Source: Sphingopyxis sp. (GTDB lineage Bacteria > Pseudomonadota > Alphaproteobacteria > Sphingomonadales > Sphingomonadaceae). From it: a stretch of DNA of 64,000 bases. The stretch's first letter is position 1, and each line of letters starts with the position of its first letter. The DNA lies in assembly GCA_030148985.1 (NCBI GenBank), contig JASBSJ010000004.1:62001-126000 (forward strand). Direction: 5' to 3'. Both the position numbers and the translations under genes were made by a program. Below, piece by piece: positions 4,718 through 57,700 of the stretch. The notes below the pieces were generated by a model. That model was not told the DNA's origin. It saw nothing but the letters and a program-made list of their open reading frames with translations, and searched no databases.

Positions 4718-4802
4718 GCCCCTGTGGTGAAATTGGTAGACGCGCTCGACTCAAAATCGAGTTCCGCAAGGAGTGCTGGTTCGAGTCCGGCCAGGGGCAC
4801 CA
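4718..4802 (+). tRNA. tRNA-Leu (anticodon CAA)
   Basis: Acceptor GCCCCTG/CAGGGGC, anticodon stem CTCGA-CTCAAAA-TCGAG, long variable arm, TTCGAGTCC T-loop, encoded CCA. Confidence 0.95.
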
Positions 4803-4843: not shown

Positions 4844-6628
4844 ATGACTATGCAGATCGACAGGCGCGGGTTTGTGAACGGGGCGCTGGGCGGCGGCGCG
4901 CTGGCGGCGCTCGCGGCCTGCTATCCCGCGTGGGCGCAGCCCGCATCGGCAGGGATCGCGCCGCCGCTGCCCAGCGTGTCGGGCACCGACATCCGCCTGC
5001 GGATCGCGCGCCAGACGCTGCGTGTCGATGGTAAGGTCCGCCGGGCGATCGGCATCAACGGCACGGTCCCGGGGCCGCTTATCCGGCTGAAGGAAGGGCA
5101 GCAGGCGCGGCTCACCGTGGTCAACGATCTCGACGAGGATAGTTCGATCCACTGGCACGGGCTGATCCTGCCCTTTCAGATGGACGGCGTTCCGGGCGTC
5201 AGCTTTCCCGGCATCAAGCCCCGTTCGACCTTCGTTTACGAATTCCCCATCGTCCAGTCGGGCACCTATTGGTATCACAGCCATTCGGGATTGCAGGAGC
5301 AGCTTGGCCATTTTGGCCCGATCGTCATCGATCCCGCCGATGCTGATCCCGTGGCCTTCGATCGCGAGCATGTGATCGTGTTGTCGGACCACAGCCGCCT
5401 GTCGCCACACGAAGTCTTTCGCAAGCTCAAGGTCAATCCGGGGCATTTCAATATGCAACGCCAGACGCTCGGTGGATTGCTCGCGGGTGAGGACCAGCCG
5501 CTGAAGGACCGGCTGGCGTGGGGGGCGATGCGGATGGACCCGACCGACGTCGCCGACGTCAACGGATCGACCTACACATTCCTCGTCAACGGTTATGGCC
5601 CGCAGGACAATTGGACCGCGCTGTTCCGTCCCGGCGAGCGCGTGCGGCTGCGGATCATCAACGCATCGGCGATGACGATCTTCAACGTTCGCATTCCGGG
5701 GCTGGCGATGACGGTGGCACAGGCCGACGGGCTGAACGTGCGGCCGGTCGATGTGGACGAGTTCCAGATCGGCGTTGCCGAAACCTATGATGTTATCGTC
5801 ACGCCGACGGAGGATCGCGCCTACAGCTTCGTTGCCGAAGCGAACGACCGGTCGGGGATGGCGCGCGCGACGCTGACGCCGCGCGCCGGACTGGTCGCGC
5901 CCATTCCGGCGCTGCGCGCTCGCCCGCTGGCAACCATGAAGGACATGGGCATGGGGGACATGGGGGACATGCCGGAGGGAGGCGGCGATGCTGCCTGCAC
6001 GCCGGACCATGCCGCGATGGGCCATTGCACCCCGGCGGACGAGGGCGCGCACACCAGCCATGGCGGCATGGACCATGGTATGCGCGATTTTGCTGTCGCG
6101 CCGCAGGTCAAGCGCGACCCCAGCGTCCAGTCGATCTCCCCCATGCCCGTCGATCGAATGGGCGAGCCGGGGCAGGGGCTGGAGGATGTCGGGCACCGCG
6201 TCCTCACCTATCATGACCTTGTCGCGCTCGACCGCAATCCCGACGTCCGCGCGCCTGGCCGCTCGATCGACATCCACCTGACCGGCAATATGGAACGCTT
6301 CATGTGGTCGTTCGACGGGGTGAAAATGTCCGACCATCACGAACCTATCCCCTTTGTCGAGGGCGAGCGCGTACGCATTCGGCTCATCAATGATTCGATG
6401 ATGAGCCACCCGATCCACCTGCACGGCCATTTTTTCGAGCTGGTGACGGGCAAGGGCGATCATGCGCCGCGCAAGCATACGGTGATCGTCCAGCCCGGCG
6501 GGATCGCGACCTTCGACTTCACCGCCGACGCGCTCGGCGACTGGGCGTTCCACTGCCACCTTCTCTATCACATGCACGCAGGCATGATGCGGGTCGTCAG
6601 CGTGCGTCCGAAGGAGGAGGCCGCGTGA
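4844..6628 (+). CDS. copA: Copper resistance multicopper oxidase CopA
   Basis: Tat-like signal MTMQIDRRGFVNGALGGGALAALAA; HWHGL, YWYHSHSG, HPIHLHGHFFEL, HCHLLYHMHAGMM; Met-rich MKDMGMGDMGDM. Confidence 0.93.
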   Translation: MTMQIDRRGFVNGALGGGALAALAACYPAWAQPASAGIAPPLPSVSGTDIRLRIARQTLRVDGKVRRAIGINGTVPGPLIRLKEGQQARLTVVNDLDEDSSIHWHGLILPFQMDGVPGVSFPGIKPRSTFVYEFPIVQSGTYWYHSHSGLQEQLGHFGPIVIDPADADPVAFDREHVIVLSDHSRLSPHEVFRKLKVNPGHFNMQRQTLGGLLAGEDQPLKDRLAWGAMRMDPTDVADVNGSTYTFLVNGYGPQDNWTALFRPGERVRLRIINASAMTIFNVRIPGLAMTVAQADGLNVRPVDVDEFQIGVAETYDVIVTPTEDRAYSFVAEANDRSGMARATLTPRAGLVAPIPALRARPLATMKDMGMGDMGDMPEGGGDAACTPDHAAMGHCTPADEGAHTSHGGMDHGMRDFAVAPQVKRDPSVQSISPMPVDRMGEPGQGLEDVGHRVLTYHDLVALDRNPDVRAPGRSIDIHLTGNMERFMWSFDGVKMSDHHEPIPFVEGERVRIRLINDSMMSHPIHLHGHFFELVTGKGDHAPRKHTVIVQPGGIATFDFTADALGDWAFHCHLLYHMHAGMMRVVSVRPKEEAA

Positions 6629-8581: not shown

Positions 8582-8844
8582 TGCTTACGGTCTCCTTGAG
8601 ATAATGAGGATTGGAACGATAAGTCTTGAACGCGCATGGAGCAGCAAGGGCTACGCCACGACTGACGAACCGTGCGTTCTATACGACGAAGCGAGATTTA
8701 TGGTCCCGAAATGGCGCGGGCTATCGCAGGCGCTGATCATTGGAGACTGCGATTCTTGCGCTGTCCGGTCTCGCATCTCGACGCTTAGACGCATGAAGGA
8801 GGCGGGGACTTGCAAGCCGCGCGGCTGATACCTAAATAAGGATT

Positions 8845-8990
8845 GTGCGGGCCGGGCCCCTCTGGCGTCGGCGGGATACTTCCCGCTGCGTGATGTCGGA
8901 CCGCATCGGGTGACACCGATGCTCTGGCCCTTCCTCCCCCGTGTCAAGGGTTCGGCATCGGCGTCACCTGCTTGATTTATCAATCAGGAG
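8845..8990 (+). promoter_or_regulatory. Structured 5' leader, candidate cis-regulatory RNA (possibly the terC RNA motif)
   Basis: Successive hairpins (GCGGGATACTTCCCGC; GCATCGGGTGACACCGATGC) between a promoter-like stretch and the RBS/ATG at 9001; downstream genes are YdcH-like and terC. Confidence 0.4.
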
Positions 8991-9273: not shown

Positions 9274-10260
9274 ATGGAATTTCTGTTTGCCGACTGGCTG
9301 GGAACCCCGGCCTGGTTTTGGTTGGCTTTCATCGCGATCGTCATCGCGCTCACCGCATTCGACCTTGGTATCCTGAACAAGGAAAACAAGGAAATGGGGA
9401 TCGGCGAGAGTTTGAAGCTCTCGGCGCTCTATATCGGCATCGCACTCGCGTTCGGCGCATGGGTATGGGCCGCGAAGGGCGGCGAGGCGGGGCTGCAATA
9501 TTACACCGGCTTCTTTATCGAGAAGGCGTTGTCGATCGACAATATCTTCGTCATCTCGCTGATCTTTGCGACCTTTGCGATTCCGCTGCGCTATCAGTAT
9601 CGTGCGCTTTTGTGGGGTATCGTCGCGGTGATCGTGCTGCGCGGGATCATGATCGCGGGCGGCGCGGCGCTCGTCACCGAATATGGCTGGCTGCTCTATG
9701 TCTTCGCTGCTTTCCTGGTGTTCACGGGCATCAAGATGCTGTTCGCGGGCGAAAAGCCGATGGACGTCGCGGGCAATCCGGTCGTCAAATGGCTATCGCG
9801 GCATATCCCGTTCACCAATGAACTGCACGGCGAGCGATTTTTCGTTCGCGTGCCCGACGGCAAGACGGGCAAGCTGGTGCTTGCGGCGACGCCTTTGTTC
9901 CTTGCGCTCGTGGTCATCAACCTTGCGGACCTGGTGTTCGCGGTCGACAGCGTGCCGGCGATCTTTGCGATCACGACCGACACCTTCATCGTCTATACGT
10001 CAAATATCATGGCGATCCTGGGCCTTCGCGCGCTCTATTTTGCGCTGTCCGCGATGGTCCACCGCTTCCACTACCTCAAATATGCGCTGGCGCTGGTACT
10101 GGTGTTCATCGGGTCGAAGATATTCGTCGCCGATTTCATTCTGGGCGGCGATAAATTCCCGCCGCTGGTCAGCCTTGGCGTTACGGTTGCGCTGATCGCG
10201 GGCGGGGTGATCTGGTCGCTGATCAAGACGCGCGACGGGGAAGCGCCCTTGCCACAATAA
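9274..10260 (+). CDS. TerC family integral membrane protein
   Basis: 328 aa; FFIEKALSIDNIFVISLIF, LVVINLADLVFAVDSVPAIFAITTDTFIVYTSNIMAILGLRALYF. Confidence 0.93.
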   Translation: MEFLFADWLGTPAWFWLAFIAIVIALTAFDLGILNKENKEMGIGESLKLSALYIGIALAFGAWVWAAKGGEAGLQYYTGFFIEKALSIDNIFVISLIFATFAIPLRYQYRALLWGIVAVIVLRGIMIAGGAALVTEYGWLLYVFAAFLVFTGIKMLFAGEKPMDVAGNPVVKWLSRHIPFTNELHGERFFVRVPDGKTGKLVLAATPLFLALVVINLADLVFAVDSVPAIFAITTDTFIVYTSNIMAILGLRALYFALSAMVHRFHYLKYALALVLVFIGSKIFVADFILGGDKFPPLVSLGVTVALIAGGVIWSLIKTRDGEAPLPQ

Positions 10261-10264
10261 AATG

Positions 10265-10293
10265 CCCGCCGGAAGCTTTGCGGCTTCCGGCGG
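10265..10293 (+). terminator. Hairpin downstream of terC (candidate terminator)
   Basis: CGCCGGAAGC-TTTGCG-GCTTCCGGCG inverted repeat 5 nt after the stop; weak T tract. Confidence 0.45.
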
Positions 10294-10405
10294 ACAGGCT
10301 TTCCTCCCCAGGAAAGCTCGGGAGGCGCGGGACGCGTGTGCAAGGCGTCCCGCGCCAAGAGGGTTGGCGCGAGGGGGTGCAACGGGCCCCTCGCGCCGAA
10401 CTCGC

Positions 10406-11998
10406 TTAAGCGGCGAACTGGTTCATCGTATTGTCCTTGCCCGCGGCCTTCAGCGCCGCTTCGCCAGCGAAATATTCCTTATGGTCGTCGCCGATGTCGC
10501 TGCCGCTCATATTCTGATGCTTCACGCAGGCGATGCCCTGGCGGATTTCGGCGCGCTGGACGCCCTTGACGTAGCCGAGCATCGCTTCGTCGCCGAAATA
10601 TTCCTTGGCGAGATTGTCGGTGCTGAGCGCTGCGGTGTGATAGGTCGGCAGGGTGCTGAGGTGGTGGAAAATCCCCGCCCGCTACGCCGCGTCGCGCTGA
10701 AAGGTGCGGATGCGGTTGTCGGCTTCTTCGCCCAGCTCGGTGTCGTCATAGTCGACGCTCATCAGCTTGCCGCGGTCATAGGCGCTGACGTCCTTGCCGT
10801 CCTTTTCCCACGCGTCGAACACCTGCTGGCGGAAGTTCAGCGTCCAGTTGAAGCTCGGCGAATTATTATAGGCAAGCTTCGCATTGGGGAAGACCTCGCG
10901 GATGCGGTCGACCATGCCGGCGATCTGTTCGATGTGCGGCTTTTCGGTCTCGATCCACAGCAGGTCGGCGCCATTTTCAAGGCTGGCGATGCAATCCATC
11001 ACGCAGCGGTCCTCGCCGGTTCCGGGGCGGAACTGATAAAGGTTCGAGGGCAGGCGCTTCGGACGCATCAGCTTGCCGTCGCGGTTGATAAGGACGTCGC
11101 CGGGGTTGCCCGCGCCATCGACCTCCTCGCAGTCGAGGAAGCTGTTGTAGCGGTCGCCGAGGTCGCCGGGTTCCTTCGAATAGGCGATCTGTTTGGTCAG
11201 GCCGGCGCCGAGGCTGTCGGTGCGCGTGACAATGATGCCGTCCTCGACGCCGAGTTCCATGAAGGCGTAGCGGCAGGCGCGGATTTTCGCGATGAAATCC
11301 TCGTGCGGCACGGTGACCTTGCCGTCCTGGTGGCCGCACTGCTTTTCGTCCGAGACCTGATTCTCGATCTGGAGCGCGCAGGCGCCGGCCTCGATCATCT
11401 TTTTGGCGAGGAGGTAGGTCGCCTCGGCATTGCCGAAGCCCGCGTCGATGTCGGCGATGATCGGCACGACATGCGTTTCGTGATTGTCGATGCTCGCCTG
11501 AATCTGCTTGGCCTTGAGCTCGTCACCCTCGGCGCGCGCGGCGTCGAGGTCGCGGAACAATATGCCGAGTTCGCGGGCGTCGGCCTGACGCAGGAAGGTG
11601 TAGATTTCCTCGATCAGCGCCGGGACGCTCGTCTTTTCGTGCATCGACTGGTCGGGCAAGGGTCCGAATTCGCTGCGCAGCGCGGCAATCATCCAGCCGG
11701 AGAGATAGATGTAGCGGCCCTTGACGGTGCCGAAATGCTTCTTGATCGCGATCATCTTCTGCTGCGCGATGAAGCCGTGCCAGCAGCCCAAAGACTGGGT
11801 GTAGTTGGCGGGATCGGCGTCATAGGCGGCCATGTCGGCGCGCATGATGCGCGCGGTGTAGCGGGCGATGTCGAGGCCGGTGCGGAACTTGTTCTGCGCG
11901 CGCATCCGGGCGACGCTTTCGCCGCTGATGCCGTCCCAGGTGCCGTCGTAATCGCGGATGAGGCGGCCTGCTTGCGCCATGTCTTCCTGATAACCCAT
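10406..11998 (-). pseudogene. aceA: Isocitrate lyase (long form) interrupted by an in-frame TAG
   Basis: MGYQEDMAQAGRLIRDYDGTWDGIS...DEKQCGHQDGKVTVPHEDF...RTFQRDAA*RAGIFHHLSTLPTYHTAALSTDNLAKEYFGDEAMLGYVKGVQRAEIRQGIACVKHQNMSGSDIGDDHKEYFAGEAALKAAGKDNTMNQFAA; single TAG (10682-10684), same frame both sides. Confidence 0.9.
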
Positions 11999-12137: not shown

Positions 12138-13526
12138 ATGAGCGAGCGGCGGGTGTTTGCGGGGCCGGCGGTGCGGCGGGTGCGGCGTGAGGCGGGGATG
12201 ACGCAGGCGGCCATGGCCGAGGCGCTTGATATTTCGCCGAGCTACCTCAATCTTATCGAGAATGGGCAGCGCCCGCTGTCCGCCACAGTGTTGGTCAAGC
12301 TGGCCGAACGCTTTGCGTTCGACGCCGCGACGCTGGGCGGCGACGAGGTTCCGGGGGGCGCGGCGGGGCTCAAGCGCCGGCTCGCCGACCCGCGTTTCGC
12401 CGACCTGGGGATCGGCGCCGAGGAGGTTGAGGAATGGCTCCAGACCGCGCCCGCGACCGCCGCGGCGTTCGCGCGGCTGTTCGATGCGGCGCCCGAAGCG
12501 GCAAGTGAAAGTGACGGCGATGCGCCCGAAGTGGCCGCGGTGCGCCGCGCGATCGAGAAATGGCGCAACCATTTCCCCGATCTGGACGCGCGCGCCGAGG
12601 AGCTGGCCGACGAACTGCGGCTCGCGGGCGGCGACCTCTATGGCACGATTTCCGAGCGTTTGCGCACGCGGCACCAGCTCGGCATCCGCATTTTACCCAG
12701 CGACGTGATGCCCGATCGCCTCCGCTGGCTCGACTGGCACGCGCGGCAACTTATGCTGAGCGAGCTGCTGCGCCCCGCGTCGCGCACCTTTCAGGCCGCG
12801 GCGACGCTGGCGCAGATCGAGGCGAAGGGCGAGATCGACGCGCTGGTCGCGGGCGCCGAATTTGCCGAAGGCGCCGCGGCGCGGCTGTTCGAGCGGCATC
12901 TGGTCCATTATTTCGCCGCGGCGCTGATGATGCCGTACAGCCGTTTCCTGCGCGCGTGCGATGCGACGGGATATGATCTGCTGCTGCTCCAGCGGCGCTT
13001 CGGCGCGGGGTTCGAACAGGTCGCGCACCGGCTGACGACGCTCCAGCGCGTCGGCGCGCGCGGGCTGCCCTTTTTCATGCTGCGCATCGACCGCGCGGGG
13101 CAGGGGAGCAAGCGTTACGCCGGGGCGAGCCAGTCGCCGCTGACCGACGGCGACGCGCGCTGTCCGCTGTGGGGCGTGCACGAAGCCTTTGCTCGGCCGG
13201 GCGAAGTGATCGCCGATCTGGTCGAGCTGGAGGACGGCACGCGTTGGTTCACGCAAAGCCGGAGCGTCGCCGCGCCGGGCGCGACGGGCAGCGGCACGCC
13301 CGCGCGCTTTGCCGTTTGCGTCGGGGTCGATGCCAAGGTCGCGGCGCCGCTGATCGCCGCGCGGGGGATCGACCTGATGCGCAGCCCCGCGACGCCGATC
13401 GGCCTCGGGTGCCGCCGCTGCACGCGCACGGGTTGTGTGCAACGGTCGATGCCGCCGCGTGGGCGCCCGTTGCGGTTCAGGGATGGGGAGCGCGGGGTGA
13501 GTGCGTTCGATTTTGCGGGGGATTGA
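12138..13526 (+). CDS. XRE-family short-chain fatty acid transcriptional regulator (ScfR/RamB/MccR-like)
   Basis: N-terminal HTH VRREAGMTQAAMAEALDISPSYLNLIENGQRPLS; C-terminal RTGCVQRSMPPRGR; divergent from aceA. Confidence 0.85.
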   Translation: MSERRVFAGPAVRRVRREAGMTQAAMAEALDISPSYLNLIENGQRPLSATVLVKLAERFAFDAATLGGDEVPGGAAGLKRRLADPRFADLGIGAEEVEEWLQTAPATAAAFARLFDAAPEAASESDGDAPEVAAVRRAIEKWRNHFPDLDARAEELADELRLAGGDLYGTISERLRTRHQLGIRILPSDVMPDRLRWLDWHARQLMLSELLRPASRTFQAAATLAQIEAKGEIDALVAGAEFAEGAAARLFERHLVHYFAAALMMPYSRFLRACDATGYDLLLLQRRFGAGFEQVAHRLTTLQRVGARGLPFFMLRIDRAGQGSKRYAGASQSPLTDGDARCPLWGVHEAFARPGEVIADLVELEDGTRWFTQSRSVAAPGATGSGTPARFAVCVGVDAKVAAPLIAARGIDLMRSPATPIGLGCRRCTRTGCVQRSMPPRGRPLRFRDGERGVSAFDFAGD

Positions 13527-13568: not shown

Positions 13569-16500
13569 ATGGGCGTTGGGGACATCAGCATCGAACGGCT
13601 GGAGAAGCTGGTCGCGGAGGTAAAGCCTTCGGGCGGTTCGGAAATGTCGAATTATCAGCTGTTCGTCGAGCGGCTGACCGGCGCGCTGGGCCTGCCGCAG
13701 CCCGAGTTTGCGCGCGAGGAAACGCGGTTCAACGATTATGTGTTCGAACGCAATGTGACGTTCCGCCACCCGAACGGCACCAGCTCGACGGGCCGGATCG
13801 ACTGTTACAAGCGCGGATGCTTTGTCCTGGAAGCGAAACAGTCGGCGAAGCGGCAACAGGCGATCGAAAGCGAGCAGCTGGCGCTGGCGGGGATCGAGAC
13901 CGCGCAGAAACTGGGCCAGGCCAAGCGCGGGACCAAAAGCTGGGACAAGGTGATGATCGCGGCGCGGCGGCAGGCGGAGGATTATGCCCGCGCGCTGCCG
14001 GTCGATCATGGATACCCGCCGTTCCTGCTGATCGTCGATGTCGGCAATGTGATCGAGGTTTACGCCGATTTTTCGGGGCTGGGGAAGAATTACGACCATT
14101 TCCCCGACCGGCAGAATTACCGCCTGTCGATGGACGACCTGCTGCTGCCCGAGGTGCAGGAGCGGCTGGCGGCGATCTGGACGGCGCCGCAAACGCTGAA
14201 CCCGACGCTGCGCGCCGCCGAAGTGACGCGCGACATTGCCGAACGGCTGGCGAAAATCGCCAAGCGGCTGGAAAAGAAATATGCGCCGGTCGACATCGCG
14301 CAGTTCCTGATGCGGTGCCTGTTCACGATGTTCGCCGAGGATGTCGGGCCGGAGGATGAGGCGCAGCGGCTGATCCCCAATCGCGGGTTCGAGCGACTGT
14401 TGCACCAGATGATCGACACGCCCGAACATTTCGCGCCCGCGCTGGAAAGCCTGTGGCGGGTTATGGACAGCGGGGGTTATGCGCCGCACCTGAATGCGTC
14501 GATCAAGCGCTTCAACGGCGCGCTGTTCAAGGACAGCCGCGCGCTGGCGCTGGACCAGGACGACATTTTGGAGCTGCACAATGCGGCCAGGCGGCGCTGG
14601 GGCGATGTCGAACCGGCGATTTTCGGCACCTTGCTGGAAAGCGCGCTCGACCCCGCCGAGCGGTCGCAGCTGGGCGCGCATTATACGCCGCGCCCCTATG
14701 TCGAGCGGCTGGTGATCCCGACGATCATGGAGCCGCTGCGCGCCGATTGGGAAGAGGTCAAGGCGGCGGTCGAGGATCTGCGCCGCCGGAACGATCCGGC
14801 GGGGGCGTTGCAGGCGGTGCGCGATTTCCACCACCGGCTTTGCACTCTGCGCGTGCTGGACCCGGCGTGCGGCACGGGCAATTTCCTGTATGTCAGCCTG
14901 GAGCTGATGAAGCGGCTGGAGGGCGAGGTGCTCGACGCGCTCGACGCGCTGGGCGAAAGCGAATCGAAGCTGTTGCTGGACGGCGAGACGGTCAGCCCGC
15001 GGCAGTTTTTCGGGCTGGAGCTGAACCCGCGCGCGGTGCCGATCGCCGATCTGGTGCTGTGGATCGGCTTTTTGAAATGGCAGCTGAAGACCGTCGATGT
15101 GAAGGACATTCCCGAGCCGATCCTGAACGCCTATGGCACGATCCGGCATCAGGACGCACTGATCGCCTATGACGCCAGGGAGCTGGCGCGCGACGGGCAG
15201 GGGAACCTCATCACCATCTGGGACGGGGTGACCAGGAAATTGCACCCGATCACGGGCGAGGAAGTGCCCGACGAGACGGCGCGCAAGGAAACCTATTATT
15301 ATGTGAGACCGCGCCGGGCGGAGTGGCCCGAGGCGGAGTTTATCGTCGGCAACCCGCCCTTTATCGGCGGCAAGGACATGCGCGCCGAGCTGGGCGACGG
15401 TTATGCCGAGGCGTGCTGGAAAGTGCGGCCCGACGTGCCGGGCGGGGCCGATTTCGTGATGCATTTCTGGGACGAGGCGGCGCGGCGGCTGACCGCCAAG
15501 CCGGTGAAGAAGGGCGCGGTCAACCCGCTGCGCCGGTTCGGGTTCATCACCACCAATTCGATCACCCAGACGTTCAGCCGCCGCGTGGTCGAGCGGTGGA
15601 TGAATGCGAAAGACCCGCTGAGCCTGATCTATGCCGTGCCCGACCATCCGTGGATGAAATCGGCGGACAAGGCGGCGGTGCGGATCGCGATGACCGTCGC
15701 GCAGGCGGGGCAGCATGAGGGGGTGCTGGCCGAGGTGGTCAGTGAGGCGGAGCTGAATACGGATGCGCCGAAGGTGGAGTTGGAGCGGCGTGAGGGGAAG
15801 GTGACTTCCAAATTTGCGCTGGGCGCCGACTTGGCCCAACTGACTCCGATGCTCGCCAACGAGCTCGTCGCGTACAAAGGATATATGCCTTACGGCCTCG
15901 GCTTCATCGTTGAGCCAAGTTCCACAGTAGTGCGGGAAACCATCAATCGAGGCGGCGCGGCACACGTGCTTCGGTACCGAAATGGTAGAGATGTCGCGCA
16001 GCGCCCTCGCGGCGTTATGGCTCTCGATTTTTACGGGCTGTCACGCGACCAACTCCGTGATCGTTTTCCCGAGGCGTTTCAACACCTCCAAGACACGGTG
16101 TTCCCCGAGCGGGCGCAGGACAAGCGCAAGGCTTATCGGGACAAGTGGTGGGTTTTCGCTGAAGCGCGCGAGGGGATGCGATCTGCGTTGTCGGGGCTGT
16201 CTCGGTATCTGGTAACGACCGAAACTGCAAAGCACCGGTACTTTACGTTCTTGGATGCAGATACTGCGGCTGACCAAAAGCTACGGGTAATCGCCGTGCA
16301 TGAGGCAGGGGTGCTCTCCGTTCTTAGTTCTCGAGTTCATACAATCTTTGCTGAGCGAACAGGGGGCTGGCAGGGCGTTGGTAATGATTTGGTCTATCAG
16401 CACACCAACACCTTCAATCGCTTTCCTGTGATTGACCCATCTCCCCACCTCACCGACCTCGGCGAACGGCTCGACGCCTTTCGCAAGGAGCGGCTGGCGG

Positions 16501-17156
16501 CGCATGACTTTTTGACGATGACGGGGCTGTATAATGCGCTGGAGCGGGTGCGCGAGCTGGACGCGGGGATCGGCGAGCCGCTGACCGACGCCGAGCGCGA
16601 CACCTATGACGCCGGGCAGATCGCGATCCTGAAGGAGCTGCACGACGAAATCGATCGCGAGGTCTTTGCCGCCTATGGCTGGAGCGACCTGGGCCTGGCG
16701 CTGGTCGGCAAGCCCGGCGCGACGACGCCCAGCGCGCACAAGGGCGCCGATCAGGAAGCGGCGGAGGAGGAATTGCTCGTCCGGCTGGTTGCGCTCAATC
16801 AGGCACGCTCGGGCGAAGAGAAGGCGGGGGTGGTCCACTGGCTGCGCCCCGATTTCCAGAAGCCGCGGCTGGCCGCCAAGGTGAAGGGCGCGGTGCAGGT
16901 CGAGGCCGATCTGGGCGAGGTCGTGCGCGTCGAGGCGGTCAAATGGCCGAGCGACGGGCTGGACCAGATCCGCTCGGTTCGCGACCTGCTGGCGCGCGCC
17001 GAATCGCCGATCGCCGCGCCCGTGCTGGCGGCGGCGTTCGGCGGGCGGACGACGCCGAAGCGGCGCGACCGCGTCGAGCAGGTGCTGGAAACGCTGGTCG
17101 CGACCGGCGCCGCGCGGCGCGACGAGGCGACGCGCGGTTATTACCTGCCCAAATGA
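13569..17156 (+). CDS. MmeI-like type IIL restriction-modification enzyme (nuclease + N6-adenine methyltransferase + specificity domain)
   Basis: 1195 aa; N-terminal GRIDCYKRGCFVLEAKQS (D-ExK-like), SAM motif LDPACGTGNFLYVSLE, NPPFIGGKDMR (NPPF), C-terminal ELHDEIDREVFAAYGW. Confidence 0.85.
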   Translation: MGVGDISIERLEKLVAEVKPSGGSEMSNYQLFVERLTGALGLPQPEFAREETRFNDYVFERNVTFRHPNGTSSTGRIDCYKRGCFVLEAKQSAKRQQAIESEQLALAGIETAQKLGQAKRGTKSWDKVMIAARRQAEDYARALPVDHGYPPFLLIVDVGNVIEVYADFSGLGKNYDHFPDRQNYRLSMDDLLLPEVQERLAAIWTAPQTLNPTLRAAEVTRDIAERLAKIAKRLEKKYAPVDIAQFLMRCLFTMFAEDVGPEDEAQRLIPNRGFERLLHQMIDTPEHFAPALESLWRVMDSGGYAPHLNASIKRFNGALFKDSRALALDQDDILELHNAARRRWGDVEPAIFGTLLESALDPAERSQLGAHYTPRPYVERLVIPTIMEPLRADWEEVKAAVEDLRRRNDPAGALQAVRDFHHRLCTLRVLDPACGTGNFLYVSLELMKRLEGEVLDALDALGESESKLLLDGETVSPRQFFGLELNPRAVPIADLVLWIGFLKWQLKTVDVKDIPEPILNAYGTIRHQDALIAYDARELARDGQGNLITIWDGVTRKLHPITGEEVPDETARKETYYYVRPRRAEWPEAEFIVGNPPFIGGKDMRAELGDGYAEACWKVRPDVPGGADFVMHFWDEAARRLTAKPVKKGAVNPLRRFGFITTNSITQTFSRRVVERWMNAKDPLSLIYAVPDHPWMKSADKAAVRIAMTVAQAGQHEGVLAEVVSEAELNTDAPKVELERREGKVTSKFALGADLAQLTPMLANELVAYKGYMPYGLGFIVEPSSTVVRETINRGGAAHVLRYRNGRDVAQRPRGVMALDFYGLSRDQLRDRFPEAFQHLQDTVFPERAQDKRKAYRDKWWVFAEAREGMRSALSGLSRYLVTTETAKHRYFTFLDADTAADQKLRVIAVHEAGVLSVLSSRVHTIFAERTGGWQGVGNDLVYQHTNTFNRFPVIDPSPHLTDLGERLDAFRKERLAAHDFLTMTGLYNALERVRELDAGIGEPLTDAERDTYDAGQIAILKELHDEIDREVFAAYGWSDLGLALVGKPGATTPSAHKGADQEAAEEELLVRLVALNQARSGEEKAGVVHWLRPDFQKPRLAAKVKGAVQVEADLGEVVRVEAVKWPSDGLDQIRSVRDLLARAESPIAAPVLAAAFGGRTTPKRRDRVEQVLETLVATGAARRDEATRGYYLPK

Positions 17157-57515: not shown

Positions 57516-57589
57516 GTGGTTTGCCTTCTCCGTCCCCGCATGGTGGGTGGGTGAGGGAGGTTTCGACCAAAAACGGGCGTTTCCTTGAT

Positions 57590-57662
57590 CGTCATCCCGG
57601 ATTTGATCCGGGATCCACGACGATGGCGCGGCTATGGATCCCGGATCAAGTCCGGGATGACG
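57590..57662. repeat. Palindromic repeat (CGTCATCCCGGATTTGATCCGGGATCC...GGATCCCGGATCAAGTCCGGGATGACG)
   Basis: Inverted arms with internal hairpins CCCGGAT-TTG-ATCCGGG. Confidence 0.88.
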
Positions 57663-57700
57663 AAGGTCAGGGAGCGACCGAAGACGGACCTCTCGATCTT

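Follow-up and report, generated by a model that had tools for sequence, protein, structure and literature searches.

The isocitrate lyase gene aceA in this Sphingopyxis draft genome is interrupted in frame by an amber codon, TAG, at codon 439 of 531, which is no functional element but a one-base A>T change, private to the assembly, in an otherwise ordinary gene. The explanation we slightly favour, with a probability of about one half, is that a consensus or base-call error affected a ~115-base patch, which also holds the private replacements A410G and I448S, in which case the living cell would have a normal 530-aa enzyme. The DNA analysed (the window, 64,000 bases) is bases 62001-126000 of contig C12 (134,641 bases), and its relevant features are as follows.

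10406..11998, minus strand: the isocitrate lyase gene aceA (531-aa class, NF005074), containing an in-frame TAG.
10682..10684, minus strand: codon 439 of 531, TAG in aceA, at which all 37 Sphingopyxis orthologous loci have AAG (Lys).
10409..10681, minus strand: 91 in-frame codons past the TAG, the C-terminal part of isocitrate lyase, bearing the mark of purifying selection.
10770, minus strand: A410G, a private C>G on the coding strand.
10656, minus strand: I448S, a private T>G on the coding strand, next to the Thr-Leu pair in the conserved LITLPTYHT strand.
10263..10296, minus strand: a terminator-like hairpin, 3' of the full-length aceA frame.
12138..13526, plus strand: a divergent RamB-like regulator, intact, with HTH, IrrE-like and ScfRs domains.

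On the minus strand aceA starts at 11998 with MGYQEDMAQAGRL... and runs up to RTFQRDAA just before the TAG; beyond the stop (10684..10682) the same frame continues with RAGIFHHLSTLPTYHT... through NTMNQFAA and ends with TAA at 10406. The sequence thus confirms the original prediction of an isocitrate lyase split in frame with 91 codons downstream, and its identity, frame and coordinates were right. The first piece (438 aa; residues 2-438) scores 848 bits against the isocitrate lyase equivalog NF005074 at model positions 3-440 of 531, while the 91 codons past the TAG score 181 bits at positions 442-530 of 531. The gene therefore exceeds the curated cut-off of 446 bits, with a match that is near full-length over the two pieces, and, as both match the same model, they represent one gene rather than a chance open frame. 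The nearest solved structure is the isocitrate lyase of P. aeruginosa (PDB 6g1o). Read up to the stop, the frame lacks the C-terminal ITL strand of a complete isocitrate lyase, as the TAG precedes this strand (443-448).

Comparison with the genus shows that the stop is unique to this assembly. Among 80 Sphingopyxis genomes searched, all 79 others keep aceA or fragments of it, the frame continuing past codon 439 wherever contig ends do not cut it, and an 18-base string spanning the TAG is found in the source genome alone. The alignment with close relatives that the original prediction proposed was informative: each of the 37 unfragmented orthologous loci (32 distinct sequences) has exactly 531 codons and AAG at codon 439, and beyond Sphingopyxis the residue is Lys, Ala or Arg. 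Since AAG is present in all relatives, the change at codon 439 is a single A>T transversion, either on the terminal branch or in the assembly. Aligned with its counterpart in G011, the closest genome compared, the part of aceA before the stop (438 codons) displays 71 synonymous and 11 replacement codon differences, and the part after it (91 codons) 16 and 1, respectively. The C-terminal part was thus under purifying selection until very recently, so any real loss must be young. If the TAG base is real, aceA carries a disabling lesion in a gene that is intact in its relatives, which is what is expected of a pseudogene. A literature search found no published report of a stop in Sphingopyxis aceA, and no plasmid-borne aceA copy is closer than about 80%.

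The stop does not stand alone. The original prediction had described the gene as free of frameshift and of other decay; no genuine frameshift was found among the ~41 window genes compared with G011 or the 28 on contig C83, but A410G and I448S are two more private replacements within the same 115 bases as the stop. Against the 32 distinct relatives aceA has 10 private bases, 7 of which fall at positions that are identical in all relatives. Four of the seven are synonymous transitions that are spread out (gene positions 312, 340, 768 and 873). The remaining three come last in the gene and fit within 115 bases: A410G (1229 C>G), K439* (1315 A>T) and I448S (1343 T>G), all of them replacement transversions. 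Apart from these, almost all of the private changes in aceA are synonymous. The split between transitions and replacement transversions gives a Fisher P of 0.029, and the chance that three out of five such changes would fall in a 115-base stretch is 0.02 over three genes (aceA, terC and the RamB-like gene), or 0.05 for three of four in aceA alone, although all three values are post hoc and weak. In the neighbouring terC, two invariant sites carry private replacements, each of them a transition, and there are none in the RamB-like gene. I448S looks unnatural, as all 74 orthologs of equal length, drawn from several families, have Ile at this position. Judged from the sequence, these observations point to one local cause shared by the three transversions, and suggest a read-length patch of bad consensus, with clustered mutation plus relaxed selection the less likely source; uniform neutral decay would fit less well. 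Poor local read support may be the origin of the cluster.

The quality of the assembly bears on this reading in both directions. The source assembly is a draft, 73% complete, that totals 2.94 Mb over 86 contigs and lacks rpoB and the RF1 gene prfA; this incompleteness is consistent with an error. Contig C12, at 135 kb, probably has fair average support, which counts against one. The window is syntenic with G011 over most of its length at ~91% nucleotide identity, from which it follows that there is no conspecific among the genomes compared. Across 41 genes and ~17,000 residues of the window aligned with G011, aceA is the sole real gene with an internal stop, and no real gene in the C83 part compared (28 genes, ~10,700 residues) has one. 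An apparent second internal stop on C83 (near 52,758) was rejected because it lies upstream of the real start, and other stops flagged in scans of the window and C83 were likewise discarded as shadow frames or upstream extensions of true starts. The source assembly is thus not of generally low quality, a point in favour of a real aceA mutation. Given the two further private transversions in the patch, a consensus error is slightly likelier than a recent nonsense mutation, although the cleanness of the rest of the assembly leaves the two nearly even.

A genuine and very recent nonsense mutation, which would yield a 438-aa product from a young aceA pseudogene and switch off the glyoxylate bypass in this strain, has somewhat less than an even chance of being correct. 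Besides the clean assembly, it draws on the need for only one base to change, on the 16 synonymous to 1 replacement codon differences past the stop, which would make the event recent, and on the loss of a segment that includes the ITL strand, which aligns with FITL in other isocitrate lyases. A410G and I448S would then be ordinary or relaxed changes, possibly products of one clustered mutation event. Set against this, decay should be gene-wide and include transitions and silent changes, rather than appear as three replacement transversions in 115 bases, and aceA or fragments of it are retained by all 79 other genus genomes searched. Malate synthase G and the regulator are also still intact in the assembly, although a very recent loss predicts the same.

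If the truncation is real, the enzyme would be without barrel strand 8, the C-terminal helices and the residues equivalent to Thr347 and Leu348. The Thr347 of this strand makes contact with substrate or inhibitor in ICL1 of M. tuberculosis (PMC8659263, PMC9026967). The truncated AceA product should be inactive. A structure model of the read-through protein is of moderate quality (mean pLDDT 63, falling to low confidence beyond residue 446) and agrees only in that it places strand 443-448 after a helix predicted to end near the stop. The search for a second aceA suggested in the original prediction found no other isocitrate lyase in the assembly, 73% complete as it is. An ICL/PEP-mutase match on C83 was rejected as such a gene, being a 316-aa methylisocitrate-lyase-like protein below the NCBI cut-offs, and the ethylmalonyl-CoA pathway was rejected as a bypass as no crotonyl-CoA carboxylase/reductase scored above cut-off. 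These two absences imply that growth on acetate should fail, subject to the ~27% of the genome that is absent. The proposal that truncation disables the glyoxylate bypass agrees with the absence of any second isocitrate lyase from the assembly, within the bounds of its 73% completeness. Were the mutation real, the strain would represent a natural aceA null, the gene being retained in all the other genomes of the genus that were examined, and acetate as sole carbon source should not support its growth. Until the reads are checked, one private base in a draft genome is no ground for calling either loss of the glyoxylate bypass or recoding.

A mixture of strains, in which a minority allele or a chimeric join in a metagenome supplied the variant bases to the consensus, is highly improbable: the clustering of the private bases would suit it, and incompleteness and fragmentation give the assembly the look of a metagenome-derived draft, but none of the 37 related loci has these variants, so the donor strain would itself need the nonsense codon.

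Programmed readthrough, suppression or recoding of the TAG, yielding full-length enzyme plus a truncated form, is very unlikely to be the explanation. The frame past the stop is open and conserved, the base after the TAG is C, and RF1 was not found in the assembly; TAG followed by C is a stop context that is often leaky. The stop occurs in no relative, so nothing is conserved as a programme. About 10 other window genes end in TAG, most of which line up with a stop in G011, while no other gene compared in the window or C83 has an in-frame TAG. The anticodon CUA is present in none of the 37 tRNAs found in this 73% complete assembly, so the amber suppressor that the original prediction proposed looking for did not emerge. 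The absence of prfA is most likely a gap in the assembly, as the gene is present in G011, the flank upstream of it maps within contig C25, 117 bases short of the contig's end, and the assembly lacks rpoB as well. The missing RF1 was accordingly rejected as a sign of TAG reassignment; the only release factor match comes from the end of RF2, located at the edge of a contig. That the strain tolerates a leaky TAG, with mostly truncated product and a little full-length enzyme tuning the glyoxylate bypass, is more improbable still. Of the three options first listed, recent nonsense mutation and sequencing error survive, while programmed readthrough, with no conserved stop and with TAG as an ordinary terminator elsewhere in the window, finds no support.

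The surroundings of aceA include several other features. The RamB-like label of the divergent neighbour is reasonable given its domains, although its 299 bits to NF038139 (RamB) are under that model's 700-bit cut-off. A terC RNA motif (RF03067, 51.8 bits) at 8844-8908 lies upstream of the terC gene (9274-10260). The segment 4806-7727, missing from the syntenic G011 region, adjoins a tRNA-Leu (CAA) at 4718-4802 and carries a copper resistance multicopper oxidase (TIGR01480) followed by a gene resembling its outer-membrane partner CopB; it resembles a small tRNA-associated island. ARAGORN reports a tRNA-Ser (GCT) at 4887-4975 that was not found by the Rfam tRNA model at gathering score; another tRNA-Ser (GCT) is on contig C19, and the window copy may be spurious or degenerate. 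At 13569-17156 is a 1195-aa protein with weak similarity to BREX PglX-type DNA methyltransferases, 88% identical in G011 and unmatched in the syntenic regions that three further relatives have, which is possibly a type IIG restriction-modification enzyme. Short repeat families (57588-57664 of the window; L153:1331-1467; L181:1389-1463 and 2578-2660) have dozens of palindrome-like copies on both strands of Sphingopyxis genomes, a 135-base repeat giving ~75 matches in G011 with both strands counted.

Compared with the 531-aa NF005074 (PRK06498) class, including P. aeruginosa AceA (6g1o), the gene is of equal length, is homologous throughout its 438 + 91 residues and shares the conserved LITLPTYHT and KHQNMSG segments; it differs in the TAG at codon 439, A410G and I448S, all private to the assembly. 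With known cases of TAG recoding or readthrough (pyrrolysine, suppressor tRNA) it has in common an in-frame TAG followed by a conserved open frame, but here none of the 37 tRNAs found in the 73% complete assembly reads CUA as its anticodon, TAG is an ordinary stop elsewhere and the stop is unconserved. A known parallel is icl2 of M. tuberculosis (aceAa/aceAb, Rv1915/Rv1916), a strain-dependent disruption annotated as two pieces, in which a frameshift breaks the gene in H37Rv while other strains have it intact (PMC5854444). In that organism the lesion is a frameshift and a second gene, icl1, is present, whereas in the Sphingopyxis assembly it is a nonsense codon and there is no second isocitrate lyase. 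The aceA stop is an ordinary private nonsense codon, an error or a young null allele.
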